Of a DNA stretch of 64,000 nt, positions 12,367-17,134 are shown piece after piece. A program made the position numbers and the translations under genes. Each line of letters opens with the position of its first letter. Within the stretch, counting starts at the first letter, position 1. Below the pieces are notes generated by a model that was not told the origin of the DNA, did no database searches, and saw nothing but the letters and a program-made list of their open reading frames with translations. The stretch is from Aurantiacibacter luteus (GTDB lineage: Bacteria; Pseudomonadota; Alphaproteobacteria; Sphingomonadales; Sphingomonadaceae). The stretch spans positions 62,001 through 126,000 of the forward strand of contig NZ_LBHB01000003.1 of the NCBI RefSeq assembly GCF_001010945.1, given 5' to 3'.

Positions 12367-12981
12367 CTACCCGGGTTTGCGATAGAGCGCTGCTTCGGCG
12401 GCACGTCGGCGGACAAGGCCTTTCATGACGCGGCCGCCAGCGAAGCACCAGCGATCGAACTCACGCGACGCGCCCGCATGGTCGCCCGCCCTGTGCCTGC
12501 GGGTAAGCGTGGCGCGGGCGATCGCACCGGTGTTATAATGGAAACTGACCATGGCATCGAACTGGCTCTGGGTGGTCGGCGCGTCGCCGATGGCCGCCGC
12601 GACCTCGGCGGCATAACGGGCGAGATCGCTTTCGAGGCGCGCTTCGCACTCCGCCGCACTCCACACGGTGCCCTGGGCGATGCGCCCGCCGTGTACGTGG
12701 TCACGTCCCGTCGCGCCCCAGCCGATCGTCCATGGCGCGCCGCCGGTGCCGGGGTCGGGATAGGCTTCGAAAGCGCCGTCCGCGCGCCGCCTCGCGCAGC
12801 CCTCGAACCGCTTGATGAGAGCCACGCCTTCGGGCCCGATTTGCCACGGGGGAGCAGACGCGGCGCCCTCGTCCGACCGGCTCAGCCCGTCGAGCGCGGC
12901 GTCGATGGCATTGACCTCGCGCTGGCGCAGCGGGCGGCCGAGAAGGCGGCGGATGATGTCAAACACGGGCTTGCGGCGCAT
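12367..12981 (-). CDS. GH24 lysozyme (phage-type endolysin)
   Basis: 204-residue muramidase of glycoside hydrolase family 24, cleaving the MurNAc-GlcNAc bond of peptidoglycan. The likely catalytic triad is Glu60 (RFEGC), Asp76 (YPDPG) and Thr85 (TIGWG). Relative to T4 lysozyme there is an insert of about seven residues between Glu and Asp, seen as ARRRADG. No signal peptide or holin is visible. The ATG at 12981 has AGGAG six bases upstream. No other phage gene is nearby, so it may be a domesticated endolysin. It is divergent from the XRE regulator across 146 bases that carry that regulator's operators. Confidence 0.88.
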   Translation of the reverse strand: MRRKPVFDIIRRLLGRPLRQREVNAIDAALDGLSRSDEGAASAPPWQIGPEGVALIKRFEGCARRRADGAFEAYPDPGTGGAPWTIGWGATGRDHVHGGRIAQGTVWSAAECEARLESDLARYAAEVAAAIGDAPTTQSQFDAMVSFHYNTGAIARATLTRRHRAGDHAGASREFDRWCFAGGRVMKGLVRRRAAEAALYRKPG

Positions 12982-13127: not shown

Positions 13128-13334
13128 GTGAAGAACCGCGTGAAGGAACACCGCGAGCGGGCGGGCTGGAGCCAGGGCGAACTCGCCCGGCGGCTCGGCG
13201 TGTCGCGGCAGACGATCAACGCGGTGGAGACCGACAAGTACGATCCCAGCCTGCCGCTGGCGCTGCGCATGGCGAAGCTGTTCGCCGTTGCCGTTCCGGA
13301 CCTTTTCATCGACGAGTGGGAGCCCGAGGCATGA
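13128..13334 (+). CDS. XRE-family helix-turn-helix regulator
   Basis: 68-residue DNA-binding protein that is almost entirely one HTH_3 domain (WSQGELARRLGVSRQTINAV as the turn-helix part). It resembles small YozG/PlcR-like repressors that are paired with membrane proteins. The GTG start at 13128 is the only one that keeps the full first helix. Its stop overlaps the start of the downstream membrane-protein gene (ATGA). Palindromic operators immediately upstream suggest it represses its own operon. Confidence 0.88.
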   Translation: MKNRVKEHRERAGWSQGELARRLGVSRQTINAVETDKYDPSLPLALRMAKLFAVAVPDLFIDEWEPEA

Positions 13335-13996
13335 CCGACACGACGACCAACATCGAAGCCGCCGACCGCAAGCGCCGCCTGAAGAAGACCGCCTTTGCCC
13401 TCTTTCTGGGCGGCGTCGTCGGCTTTCTCGGCGCGATGGCGGGGATGGAACTGGCCGACAGCGGAGCTTTTGGCGCCTTCGATCCCTCGCGCGAAATCGC
13501 GCTGCTGGTGGCCATCCTCTACGCCATTACCGGGCTCGGCATACTCGCCGGTATCGCCTTCCCGCGCGCCGGAGCGACGTTCCTCAATGTCGAGGATGCC
13601 GACGAACTCCGCGAACAGCGCGCCATGCTGACCATGAGCGGGCTCGGCATGACCCTGATGGGCGCGGCGCTTGCGGTGGTGGCGCTTGGCGGTGCCGACG
13701 GCGCGATAGCGCCGGGCACTGCCGTGGCCCTGTACGCCGTATTGAGCGTTGCTGCCGTCGTGCTCTCGGTGAAGACCTTGAAGCTGCAGGACGAACTGAT
13801 GCGCGCCGTCGGCCGGCAGACCGGTATGGTCGCCTTCTACCTGCTGGCGCTGATCGGCGGCACTTGGGCCATGCTCGCCCACCTCGGCTTCGTGGCCGCT
13901 CCCGCGCCCCTCGACTGGCTGACGATGATCTGGTCGCTGATGCTGCTCGCCGCGTTCATCGTGGTGGCGCAGAAGGGCATGATGGTAATGCGTTGA
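13331..13996 (+). CDS. Six-helix membrane protein co-transcribed with the XRE regulator
   Basis: 221 residues, function unknown. About six transmembrane helices are visible: residues 20-40, 58-80, 97-120, 128-150, 163-186 and 195-218. The ATG at 13331 overlaps the regulator stop. XRE-plus-membrane-protein pairs of this style are common in sphingomonads, but their role is not established. A diverged 3' fragment of a homologous gene is found again at 14887-14952. Confidence 0.82.
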   Translation: MTDTTTNIEAADRKRRLKKTAFALFLGGVVGFLGAMAGMELADSGAFGAFDPSREIALLVAILYAITGLGILAGIAFPRAGATFLNVEDADELREQRAMLTMSGLGMTLMGAALAVVALGGADGAIAPGTAVALYAVLSVAAVVLSVKTLKLQDELMRAVGRQTGMVAFYLLALIGGTWAMLAHLGFVAAPAPLDWLTMIWSLMLLAAFIVVAQKGMMVMR

Positions 13997-14058
13997 AACT
14001 TAATCGGGCGTTCATGCGCGGGCGCAAGGATTGGGGTCAGGTTTTCAGGGGACCACAC

Positions 14059-14715
14059 ATGAACAGGACATTCGCCGGCGCCGCGCTCGCCGCCATTTGC
14101 ATTCCCGCCGCGCCCGTCGCCGCGCAGGATGCGGAGTGGGTTTCCACCCTCGAGGGGCGCGCGCCTGCCGAAATGGGCCTGGTCCTGCTGGGAGAGCGCG
14201 ACCATGCCGAGATCGTCGAGATCGTCGACCGGACGATGGGCATGACGCCCCCGGGAATGCGCGACTACGCCTTGTTGGAGCGTCCCGTGCGGATGGGCGA
14301 TGCCTGCCAGCGCGTGCGCTGGGACGTGACGGCGGGGATTTCCGATGGCCTTTCGACCCGCTCGGCCTATGCCCGTCGCCAGGTCGCACTTGCGCCTGCC
14401 GACCCTTGCGAATTTGCCGACTATGCGACCCTCGCAGATGGGATCGAGGACGAGCAGGGCGTTGAATTGTTGCGCATGGCGAGCGCGCTGCACGAAACCG
14501 GCCGTCCGCTGGAATGCGGCGACGAGACCGCATCGGACCTCTGCCGCACCGACAACTACCTCCGCCTGCAACTGCGCTACCTGACCGCCACCCGCATCGC
14601 GCGCGACGGCGACAGCACGGTGGTCTGGTTCGGCGAGCCCTTCACCGAGGTCCGCGTGCCCGACGACGAGGGATCTCCGATCGCCGTCGTGCGCCGGGTT
14701 CCCGCGGTATTCTGA
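14059..14715 (+). CDS. Secreted four-cysteine protein, copy 1, function unknown
   Basis: 218 residues with a signal peptide (FAGAALAAICIPAAPVAAQ). The mature part has four cysteines in CQRVRWDV, PCEFADY and LECGDETASDLC. All four, and the motifs around them, are kept in the neighbouring gene at 14985, so these are paralogues or xenologues of one unnamed family, and two disulfides are plausible. Overall identity between the two is low outside the motifs. The ATG at 14059 is the only start in front of the signal peptide. No family was recognised. Confidence 0.78.
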   Translation: MNRTFAGAALAAICIPAAPVAAQDAEWVSTLEGRAPAEMGLVLLGERDHAEIVEIVDRTMGMTPPGMRDYALLERPVRMGDACQRVRWDVTAGISDGLSTRSAYARRQVALAPADPCEFADYATLADGIEDEQGVELLRMASALHETGRPLECGDETASDLCRTDNYLRLQLRYLTATRIARDGDSTVVWFGEPFTEVRVPDDEGSPIAVVRRVPAVF

Positions 14716-14717
14716 CG

Positions 14718-14748
14718 AAAAAAAGGCCGCCCGGTTTCCCGGGCGGCC
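14718..14748. terminator. Perfect hairpin terminator (ancestral glnA-type)
   Basis: Ten-base perfect stem GGCCGCCCGG (14725-14734) with CCGGGCGGCC (14739-14748), loop TTTC, next to seven A at 14718-14724. It reads best as a terminator for minus-strand transcription, although only a glnA stub now lies behind it. A degenerate copy stands behind the intact glnA at 15671-15698. Confidence 0.85.
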
Positions 14749-14776
14749 CTCTTGATCCGGTTACCGGTAGCGCTGG

Positions 14777-14880
14777 TTACATGCTGTAATAGAGATCGAA
14801 TTCCACCGCGCTCGGGGTGGTTTCGACGCGCATGACCTCTTCCCACTTCAGCACGATGTACGCGTCGATCTGGTCCTTGG
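14777..14880 (-). pseudogene. 3' fragment of glnA (last about 34 codons)
   Basis: Matches the last 104 bases of the intact glnA (15725-15828) at 95 of 104 positions. Read on the minus strand it gives [18 protein letters not shown] and continues to the same C-terminus and stop, with one amino-acid change (Glu to Val). Eight of the nine differences fall in third codon positions and are silent, so the fragment diverged while it was still part of a working gene. It has no start, no 5' part and no promoter. Confidence 0.85.
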
Positions 14881-14886
14881 CGATGC

Positions 14887-14952
14887 TCTGGTCGCTGATT
14901 GCGCGCCGCTTTCATCGTGGTGGCTAGGAGGGGCATCGTGGGCATGCGTTGA
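14887..14952 (+). pseudogene. 3' fragment of the six-helix membrane-protein gene
   Basis: Resembles the end of the membrane-protein gene at 13331-13996. From 14899 it reads LRAAFIVVARRGIVGMR and stops, against LLAAFIVVAQKGMMVMR in the intact gene. About 42 of the last 54 bases agree. A two-base deletion near 14898 breaks the frame with the few matching bases before it. Together with the glnA fragment it marks a recombination junction at about 14881-14888. Confidence 0.75.
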
Positions 14953-14984
14953 CAGGCACCGCTGACGCGACCAGATTTTTGGCC

Positions 14985-15659
14985 ATGATACTGCGGACCC
15001 TGACTACCGGCATCATTTTGCTGGCCTTGGCGCGAGGCGCCGCGGCGCAGGATGTGGATCTTTCCTGGCGGGATCTCGACGGCCTTACTCCGGCGCAGAT
15101 CGGTGACCGGGCGCTTGCCGGGCTCGACCATGAAGAGATCGTAGCGATCGAGGTGAACAGGGCCGCCTTGACTGCCCAAGGCGAGCATCGCGTCTTGCTT
15201 CACGAACTGCCCAAGCGATTGGGGGAGGTGGGATGCGTGAGGACGGTGTGGGATGTCACCCTACTGGACGCGCCCGACGTTTCGGAGCGGCATCGTCAAA
15301 TGGCCCTCGCAGGCCGCAGAAGCGCAAAGCGTGTCGCATATTCACCGGACCGTCCATGTTTGTTTGCCGATTTCGTCAGGGTTAGCGGCATATCTCCAGA
15401 ACAGGCTATGGCGGGACTGGCACATCTCGCCGAGTGGCGATCGCAAGAGCGCGCGTTGGAGTGTGGTGACACCTCTGGCTCCGACATCTGCACGAGGCCG
15501 CAGGCAGCCATTTCCATGGCTCGTCAGACGGCGCCGCTGGTGATCGGACGTGAAGGGGCGGAATGGTGGTACGCGTTGCGGCCGGGGACACGGCTGCGCT
15601 TGGCCGACGATCTGACTGCGCCCGCGCGGCTGGAATTGCGGATACCTGTGCCCTTCTAG
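14985..15659 (+). CDS. Secreted four-cysteine protein, copy 2, function unknown
   Basis: 224 residues with a signal peptide (RTLTTGIILLALARGAAAQ) and the same four mature cysteines as the copy at 14059: GCVRTVWDV, RPCLFADF and LECGDTSGSDIC. It sits in the same relative place, after the end of a membrane-protein gene and before a convergent glnA. The two proteins are much more different than the flanking fragments, so they probably come from different lineages or evolve fast. The ATG at 14985 gives the best signal peptide. No family was recognised. Confidence 0.76.
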   Translation: MILRTLTTGIILLALARGAAAQDVDLSWRDLDGLTPAQIGDRALAGLDHEEIVAIEVNRAALTAQGEHRVLLHELPKRLGEVGCVRTVWDVTLLDAPDVSERHRQMALAGRRSAKRVAYSPDRPCLFADFVRVSGISPEQAMAGLAHLAEWRSQERALECGDTSGSDICTRPQAAISMARQTAPLVIGREGAEWWYALRPGTRLRLADDLTAPARLELRIPVPF

Positions 15660-15670
15660 CGAGAAGCGAA

Positions 15671-15698
15671 AGGGCCGCCCGGTTTCCCGAGCGACCCT
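15671..15698 (-). terminator. Degenerate glnA terminator
   Basis: A GGGCCGCCCGG stem (15672-15682) faces CCGAGCGACCC (15687-15697) with two A-C mismatches, and the U-tract on the minus strand is weak (CCCTTTCGCTTC). It lies 27 bases after the glnA stop and aligns with the perfect hairpin at 14718-14748. Confidence 0.6.
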
Positions 15699-15724
15699 CC
15701 TGATCCGGTTACCGGCAGCGCAGG

Positions 15725-17134
15725 TTACATGCTGTAGTAGAGGTCGAACTCCACCGCGCTCGGCGTCGTCTCGACGCGCATGACCTCTTCCCACTTGAGC
15801 TCGATGTAGGCGTCGATCTGGTCCTTGGTGAAGACGTCGCCGGCGAGCAGGAACTCGTGGTCCTTTTCCAGCTCGGTCAGCGCCTCGCGCAAGCTGCCGC
15901 ACACGGTCGGCACTTCCTTCAACTCCTCGGGCGGCAGGTCGTAGAGGTTCTTGTCCATCGCCTCGCCGGGATGGATCTTGTTCTGGATGCCGTCGAGACC
16001 CGCCATCAGCAGCGCGGCATAGGCGAGGTAGGGGTTGGCCATCGCGTCGGGGAAGCGGAACTCCACGCGCTTGGCCTTTTCGCCCGAACCGTAGGGAATG
16101 CGGCACGATGCCGAGCGGTTGCGCGCCGAGTAGGCGAGCAGTACCGGCGCCTCGAACCCCGGAACCAGCCGCTTGTAGCTGTTGGTGGTGGGGTTGGTGA
16201 AGGCGTTCAGCGCCTTGGCGTGCTTGATGACGCCGCCGATGTAGTAGAGGCAGTTGTCCGACAGCCCGGCATAGCCGTTGCCGGCAAAGGTCGGCTTGCC
16301 GCCGTCCCAGATCGACATGTGGGTGTGCATGCCGCTGCCGTTGTCGTCCTTGATCGGCTTGGGCATGAAGGTCGCCGTCTTGCCGTAGGCGTGGGCGACC
16401 TGGTGCACGACGTACTTGTAGATCTGCATGCGGTCGGCGGTCTGCACCAGGGTGCCGAAGGTGAGGCCGAGCTCGTGCTGCGCGGCGGCCACCTCGTGGT
16501 GGTGCTTGTCGCAGGGCAGGCCCATTTCCAGCATGGTCGAGACCATCTCGCCGCGAATGTCGACGGCGCTGTCGATCGGGGCGACGGGGAAATAGCCGCC
16601 CTTCACGCGCGGGCGATGCGCCATGTTGCCGCTGTCGTAGTCGGTGCCGGTATTGGTCGGCAGTTCCACGTCATCGATCTGGAAGCCCGAACCGGCATAG
16701 CCGTCCTCGAAGCGGACGTCGTCGAACATGAAGAACTCGGCTTCCGGGCCGACATAGACGGTGTCGCCGATGCCGGTGGACTTGAGGTAGGCCTCGGCAC
16801 GCTTGGCTGTGGTGCGCGGGTCGCGGCCGTAGCCTTCGCCCGTGCTCGGCTCCACGATGTCGCAGTTGACGATCATCATCGGGGTGGCGCTGAACGGGTC
16901 CATCCACACCTCCTCGAGGTCGGGCTTCAGGATCATGTCGCTCTCGTTGATGGCCTTCCACCCGGCGATGGAGGAGCCGTCGAACATCAGGCCTTCTTCA
17001 AGCTGGTCCTCGTCGAGCGCGCTCGCGACCATCGAGAGGTGCTGCCACTTGCCCTTGGGATCGGTGAAGCGAAGGTCGACCCACTCGATCTCCTCGTCCT
17101 TGATGCGCTTGATGATGTCGGATGCCTTGGACAT
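15725..17134 (-). CDS. glnA: Glutamine synthetase, type I
   Basis: 469-residue dodecameric GSI that makes glutamine from glutamate, ammonia and ATP. Seen: the N-terminal latch region [10 protein letters not shown], the ATP-binding segment [20 protein letters not shown], and the adenylylation loop [10 protein letters not shown] with the target Tyr near residue 398, so GlnE-type control is likely. The ATG at 17134 begins MSKASDIIK, a usual GSI start. It follows glnB by 46 bases on the same strand, the standard alphaproteobacterial glnBA order. Its 3' end is duplicated as a stub at 14777-14880. Confidence 0.96.

Follow-up and report, generated by a model that had tools for sequence, protein, structure and literature searches.

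Organization of the locus

Did the two tandem genes for secreted proteins next to glnA in Aurantiacibacter luteus arise by duplication within one lineage, or were they already distinct alleles when they met? Tandem paralogues are readily mistaken for local duplicates. The window analyzed, that is, the whole stretch of DNA under study, is 64,000 nucleotides long. The locus occurs once in the 2.89 Mb genome (G000, 22 contigs), within the 214 kb contig C17, and its second match to glnA is the gene fragment described below.

An intact membrane-protein gene (P0003, 221 aa; positions 13331–13996, plus strand), assigned as such by eye and having no Pfam or NCBIfam match, is followed by the gene for secreted protein 1 (P0001, 218 aa; copy 1, type I; 14059–14715, plus strand), whose signal peptide was recognized by eye. 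Next come a terminator-like hairpin with its T-run on the minus strand (14720–14753) and a 3' stub of glnA (14777–14880, minus strand) of 34 triplets, including the stop, plus 2 bases. The second unit consists of a 3' stub of the membrane gene (14881–14952, plus strand; aligned to 13923–13996), the open frame of secreted protein 2 (P0002, 224 aa; copy 2, type II; 14985–15659, plus strand), another hairpin (15669–15700) and the intact glnA (15725–17134, minus strand), encoding a type I glutamine synthetase of 469 aa (TIGR00653, 643 bits at a cut-off of 429).

Re-reading of the sequence agreed with the earlier note that the order membrane gene, secreted protein, hairpin and glnA occurs twice in succession and that copy 1 ends in a glnA 3' fragment, which aligns with the intact 3' end (15725–15828) without gaps. 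The membrane-gene fragment opening copy 2 is also present, but it starts at 14881 rather than at 14887, and the join, previously placed at about 14881–14888, lies slightly to the left, between 14880 and 14881.

The locus in related genomes

The genus was searched in 40 Aurantiacibacter genomes including G000, 33 of which were at least 90% complete, at an E value of 0.001 or less. The secreted gene was found in four of them: G000, G004, G023 and G012 (3 of the 39 besides G000). A comparison with relatives had been proposed as a check, and it revealed no tandem in the three congeners having the gene: G004, G023 and G012 each carry a single copy in the same slot, with the membrane gene on one side and glnA on the other. 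A scan of named genomes returned two loci, in Aurantiacibacter sediminis and Aurantiacibacter sp. D1-12, which were taken as G012 and G023. In a search for a donor among 397 genomes of the family (even draw), matches were obtained in 9 (G000 and G023 among them, G004 and G012 not), and no donor locus was found.

Homologues of the membrane gene are encoded in 20 of the 40 genus genomes, including G000, and the G004 homologue is 72% identical. By our own reading, glnA lies within about 200 bases in 12 of these 20 genomes and something intervenes in 8. The eight occupied slots contain the secreted gene in four cases and other open frames in G022, G016, G027 and G007. The slot thus accepts varied cargo. 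The other cargo (loci L058 in G022, L045 in G016, L044 in G027, L053 in G007 and L072 in G097) includes antiporter-like genes, as judged by eye. The slot protein of G022 has an HELCH motif and looks metallopeptidase-like by eye, while the slot of G097, a member of another genus, holds an antiporter-like gene (by eye) together with a distant homologue of the secreted protein.

Silent divergence of the glnA stub

The glnA stub differs from the intact gene at 9 of 104 bases, and 8 of these differences are silent third-position changes, exactly as first described; the sole non-silent difference is Glu to Val. The earlier expectation that plain duplication followed by decay should scatter changes over all codon positions, unlike in the stub, was borne out by simulation, in which a duplicated stub evolved neutrally and glnA near-silently, held to 9 differences, under 12 mutation models with 3,000 draws. 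Whichever of the 12 models was used, no more than 0 to 0.3% of draws yielded one or no non-silent codon, and 0.1 to 1.1% yielded at least 8 third-position changes. The rarity of the silent pattern argues that most stub differences arose while both pieces belonged to working genes. This simulation, the main test of the stub, is unpolarised and concerns a small sample of 104 bases and 9 changes. The eight silent differences per 34 codons between the stub and the intact gene are of the same size as the divergence between G000 and G004 (mean 6.1, range 1–10 per 34 codons).

Polarization via G004 assigned 7 of the 9 changes to the stub side, 6 of them silent (P = 0.0002). It was not relied on as evidence, because at 5 of the 7 sites between 6 and 25 of 34 other loci have the same base as the stub, and some of these bases may be retained old ones. 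Only two bases are unique to the stub, one silent and one non-silent, which gives no statistical power.

Signals for the placement of the stub conflict. Two silent sites of the stub carry the base most common in the genus (20 and 25 of 34 loci), while G000 and G004 share a different base, which is not expected of a duplicate younger than the G004 split and suggests that the stub line split off before changes common to G000 and G004. In contrast, the stub and the intact glnA of G000 both end in a Met codon, which among the 35 glnA genes compared is found only in that of G000, and the following 24 bases of the stub match G000 at 22 positions, with G004 differing from each of the two at 11. Divergence in this flank (2 of 24) is lower than at the silent sites (8 of about 19, p = 0.013). 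The Met end and the flank point to a donor closer than G004, contrary to the two silent sites and to the tree of the 104-base fragment; these signals would be brought into line if stub and gene had subsequently exchanged their terminal bases.

The glnA tree comprised 23 of 35 loci (25 were picked, and G035 and G026 were removed for length) and was midpoint-rooted only for drawing. It joined G000 with G004 (100/100) and set G023 and G012 across a 100/99 split. In a tree of the 104 bases, a check that had been suggested for the glnA 3' ends, the stub groups with G000 and G004 (96/79), and its placement with G023 and G012 is rejected (AU p = 0.026). Within this group the tree joins G000 to G004 (59/81), but 104 columns are too few, and the Met codon and flank disagree. 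Placing the stub with this tree was abandoned: the constraint uniting it with G000 costs 8.7 log units and is not rejected (p = 0.285).

Two types of the secreted protein

BLASTP of the two secreted proteins as a single pair gave E = 2e-22, with 65 identities over 204 positions, so they are homologous. Their identity is 31–36%, and Cys 83, 117, 153 and 162 (P0001 numbering) are invariant across five sequences. Secreted protein 1 is 48% identical to the products of the G023 and G012 genes. In a protein tree of 10 rows, which did not include the weak G257 and G070 matches, copy 1 groups with G023 and G012 (98/97), and copy 2, a long branch flagged by the program, groups weakly with G004 (69/62). 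Forcing copies 1 and 2 as sisters loses 10.4 log units and is borderline (AU p = 0.053); forcing both together with G004 gives AU p = 0.047. The separate tree proposed for these proteins thus leaves the copies unpaired, with firm grouping of copy 1 elsewhere, but rejects their sisterhood only at the borderline. Neither are the copies mutual nearest relatives in every part of the locus: the secreted genes separate in the best tree, and the glnA ends give the conflicting signals described above.

At the nucleotide level, the two secreted genes agree at 52% of first and 50% of second codon positions, compared with 91% identity between the stub and glnA. If there had been one local duplication, the stub would set the clock at 9 of 104 (95% interval 4 to 16%). 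With about half of positions 1 and 2 changed, a single duplication would need change several-fold faster than neutral across the whole gene. Further, GC3 is 0.70 in copy 2 and 0.68 in the G004 gene, and the spacer between the membrane gene and the secreted gene measures 32 bases in copy 2 and 31 in G004, versus 62 in copy 1, 78 in G023 and 72 in G012.

As to membership in a toxin or immunity family, the secreted proteins had no matches in Pfam, NCBIfam or PADLOC at the cut-offs used, and no clear fold match. An AlphaFold model (four sequences) had a mean pLDDT of 73; Foldseek returned no match at an E value of 0.001 or less, and VIA reached at most Z = 4.7, over 61 residues. Naming the protein by its fold was dropped, since the model was uninformative on function.

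Membrane-gene stub and the join

The membrane-gene stub differs from 13923–13996 by 11 substitutions and a 2-base deletion. Unlike in the glnA stub, the substitutions are spread over codon positions 1, 2 and 3 (3, 4 and 4, respectively); changes at positions 1 and 2 amount to 7 of 48 versus 1 of 69 in the glnA stub (Fisher p = 0.008). Such uneven decay suggests either that the fast-changing membrane-gene ends differed between the lines beforehand or that the stubs died in two events. In 60-base windows the intact membrane gene is mostly 65–77% identical to that of G004, and 83% and 93% identical in two windows at the 3' end (13861–13980). This rise, to 93% at 13921–13980, may hint at a recombination tract.

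The join fuses the 3' ends of two unrelated genes, glnA and the membrane gene, without extended homology, and in the present-day sequences microhomology is absent at the exact join. In its neighborhood (14867–14893), the 9-mer GATCTGGTC occurs near the break points in both parent genes, and the product retains both occurrences, the second with one mismatch. Among random pairs, 0.6 to 2.5% have a 9-base parental match at the break points, the share varying with the interval used; the 9-mer lies within 15 bases of the join but is offset and does not contain it. G000 has a gene of the ComEC family, as do 10 of 14 control genomes, so it carries little weight.

Origin of the tandem pair

The locus is probably a chimeric tandem pair, in which DNA that had been taken up was joined by homology at one end and illegitimately at the other, placing one allele beside another. 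A separate history of the parts is supported by the data, and the recombination steps are inferred. One lineage would have carried the membrane gene, a type II secreted gene and glnA, and a related lineage the membrane gene, a type I gene and glnA. DNA of one would have entered the other and recombined by homology at one end, within the membrane gene or glnA, while at the other end the glnA 3' end would have been fused illegitimately to the membrane-gene 3' end. Due to the illegitimate end, the incoming allele would be added beside the resident one and not replace it, and two truncated ends would persist as stubs. We lean towards copy 2 as the resident and copy 1 as the incoming allele, because in spacer length, GC3 and, weakly, tree position copy 2 is close to the G004 locus.

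The proposal of the earlier note that the copies diverged in separate lineages before joining withstands most of the checks suggested there and is supported by the silent pattern and the secreted-protein tree. It is qualified by the borderline AU value, the decay of the membrane stub at all codon positions and the different grouping of the stub, with G000 and G004, and of copy 1, with G023 and G012. The last discrepancy implies that either type I had reached the donor line earlier or the two types are ancient and common to several species. A further-reaching picture, which we hold to be unlikely, is that the slot is an exchange hot spot where diversifying selection maintains two old allele classes of the secreted gene in different species, and that this strain captured both side by side, leaving the stub as a datable fossil of the capture.

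Two other histories appear improbable, to the same degree. An ancient tandem array, with differential loss per species and a stub end refreshed from the intact glnA by gene conversion, accounts for the deep split between types I and II and for a flank less diverged than the silent sites; neutral decay would, however, resume after each conversion, contrary to the silent pattern, and all three relatives with the gene have a single copy. The other is an in-lineage duplication followed, as a second event, by replacement of the copy 1 secreted gene with a foreign allele via homologous flanks. It fits the different affinities of copy 1, with G023 and G012, and of the stub, with G000 and G004, as well as the unequal decay of the two stubs, but leaves the near-silent changes in the glnA stub unexplained. 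A plain tandem duplication in one lineage with subsequent stub decay and secreted-gene divergence, although in line with the identically repeated gene order, the shared Met end and 22 of 24 following bases, the membrane stub changed at every codon position and the sister AU p of 0.053, is the least probable history in view of the nearly silent-only glnA stub changes, secreted genes much more diverged than the stub and the grouping of copy 1 with G023 and G012.

Comparison with known allele additions

The proposed allele addition resembles homology-facilitated illegitimate recombination (HFIR), described as adding DNA to the chromosome through one homologous and one illegitimate end, with inserts of about 1 kb on average (PMC3240628). 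In that description the join mostly has 3–10 bp of microhomology and comes with a deletion of similar size, whereas here the exact join has no microhomology in the present-day sequences, the 9-mer is offset and no large deletion is evident; moreover, the proposed incoming DNA was homologous to the locus at both ends. In the type VI immunity gene arrays of Vibrio cholerae, as reported, one slot collects new alleles next to older ones, 3' remnants are left, alleles of the same genome do not cluster, and an HFIR-like event was proposed (PMC5361080). The Aurantiacibacter locus shares the proposed addition of allele beside allele in one slot, the 3' remnants and the non-clustering copies, but one of its stubs derives from a housekeeping gene, and the likeness comes without a demonstrated secretion system or toxin–immunity pair. 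Merodiploids of Streptococcus pneumoniae likewise have two alleles in tandem from a small fragment: uptake leads to a tandem duplication with two alleles per chromosome (PMC3784515). The model given there needs a chromosomal repeat such as IS861, and no such repeat was seen at our locus; the same report notes one small duplication without flanking repeats, of unclear mechanism.

The locus is probably a further case of allele addition, an already known kind of event, here with a readable fossil. Silent changes in a small, defunct piece of a housekeeping gene appear to record that the copies were already distinct alleles on meeting. Reading flanking stubs likewise could tell duplication from allele capture at other loci. 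A literature search on glnA fragments yielded nothing relevant.

Hairpins and neighboring features

The fold z of the copy 1 hairpin is –5.5 on the minus strand and –2.7 on the plus strand, and that of the copy 2 hairpin is –3.3 on the minus strand. A consensus terminator scan listed neither hairpin; its single terminator-like site was at 15040, while shuffles averaged 1.5, and a promoter scan gave no promoter-like sites. The core of the copy 2 hairpin recurs in 24 of 34 other loci, each time no more than 120 bases past glnA. Between the hairpin and the glnA end, both copies contain CCGGTTACCGG (14753–14776 and 15701–15724), a stretch more conserved between the copies than silent sites and missing in G004. 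An open frame near the locus, at 12367–12981 on the minus strand, resembles a phage-type lysozyme when judged by eye.
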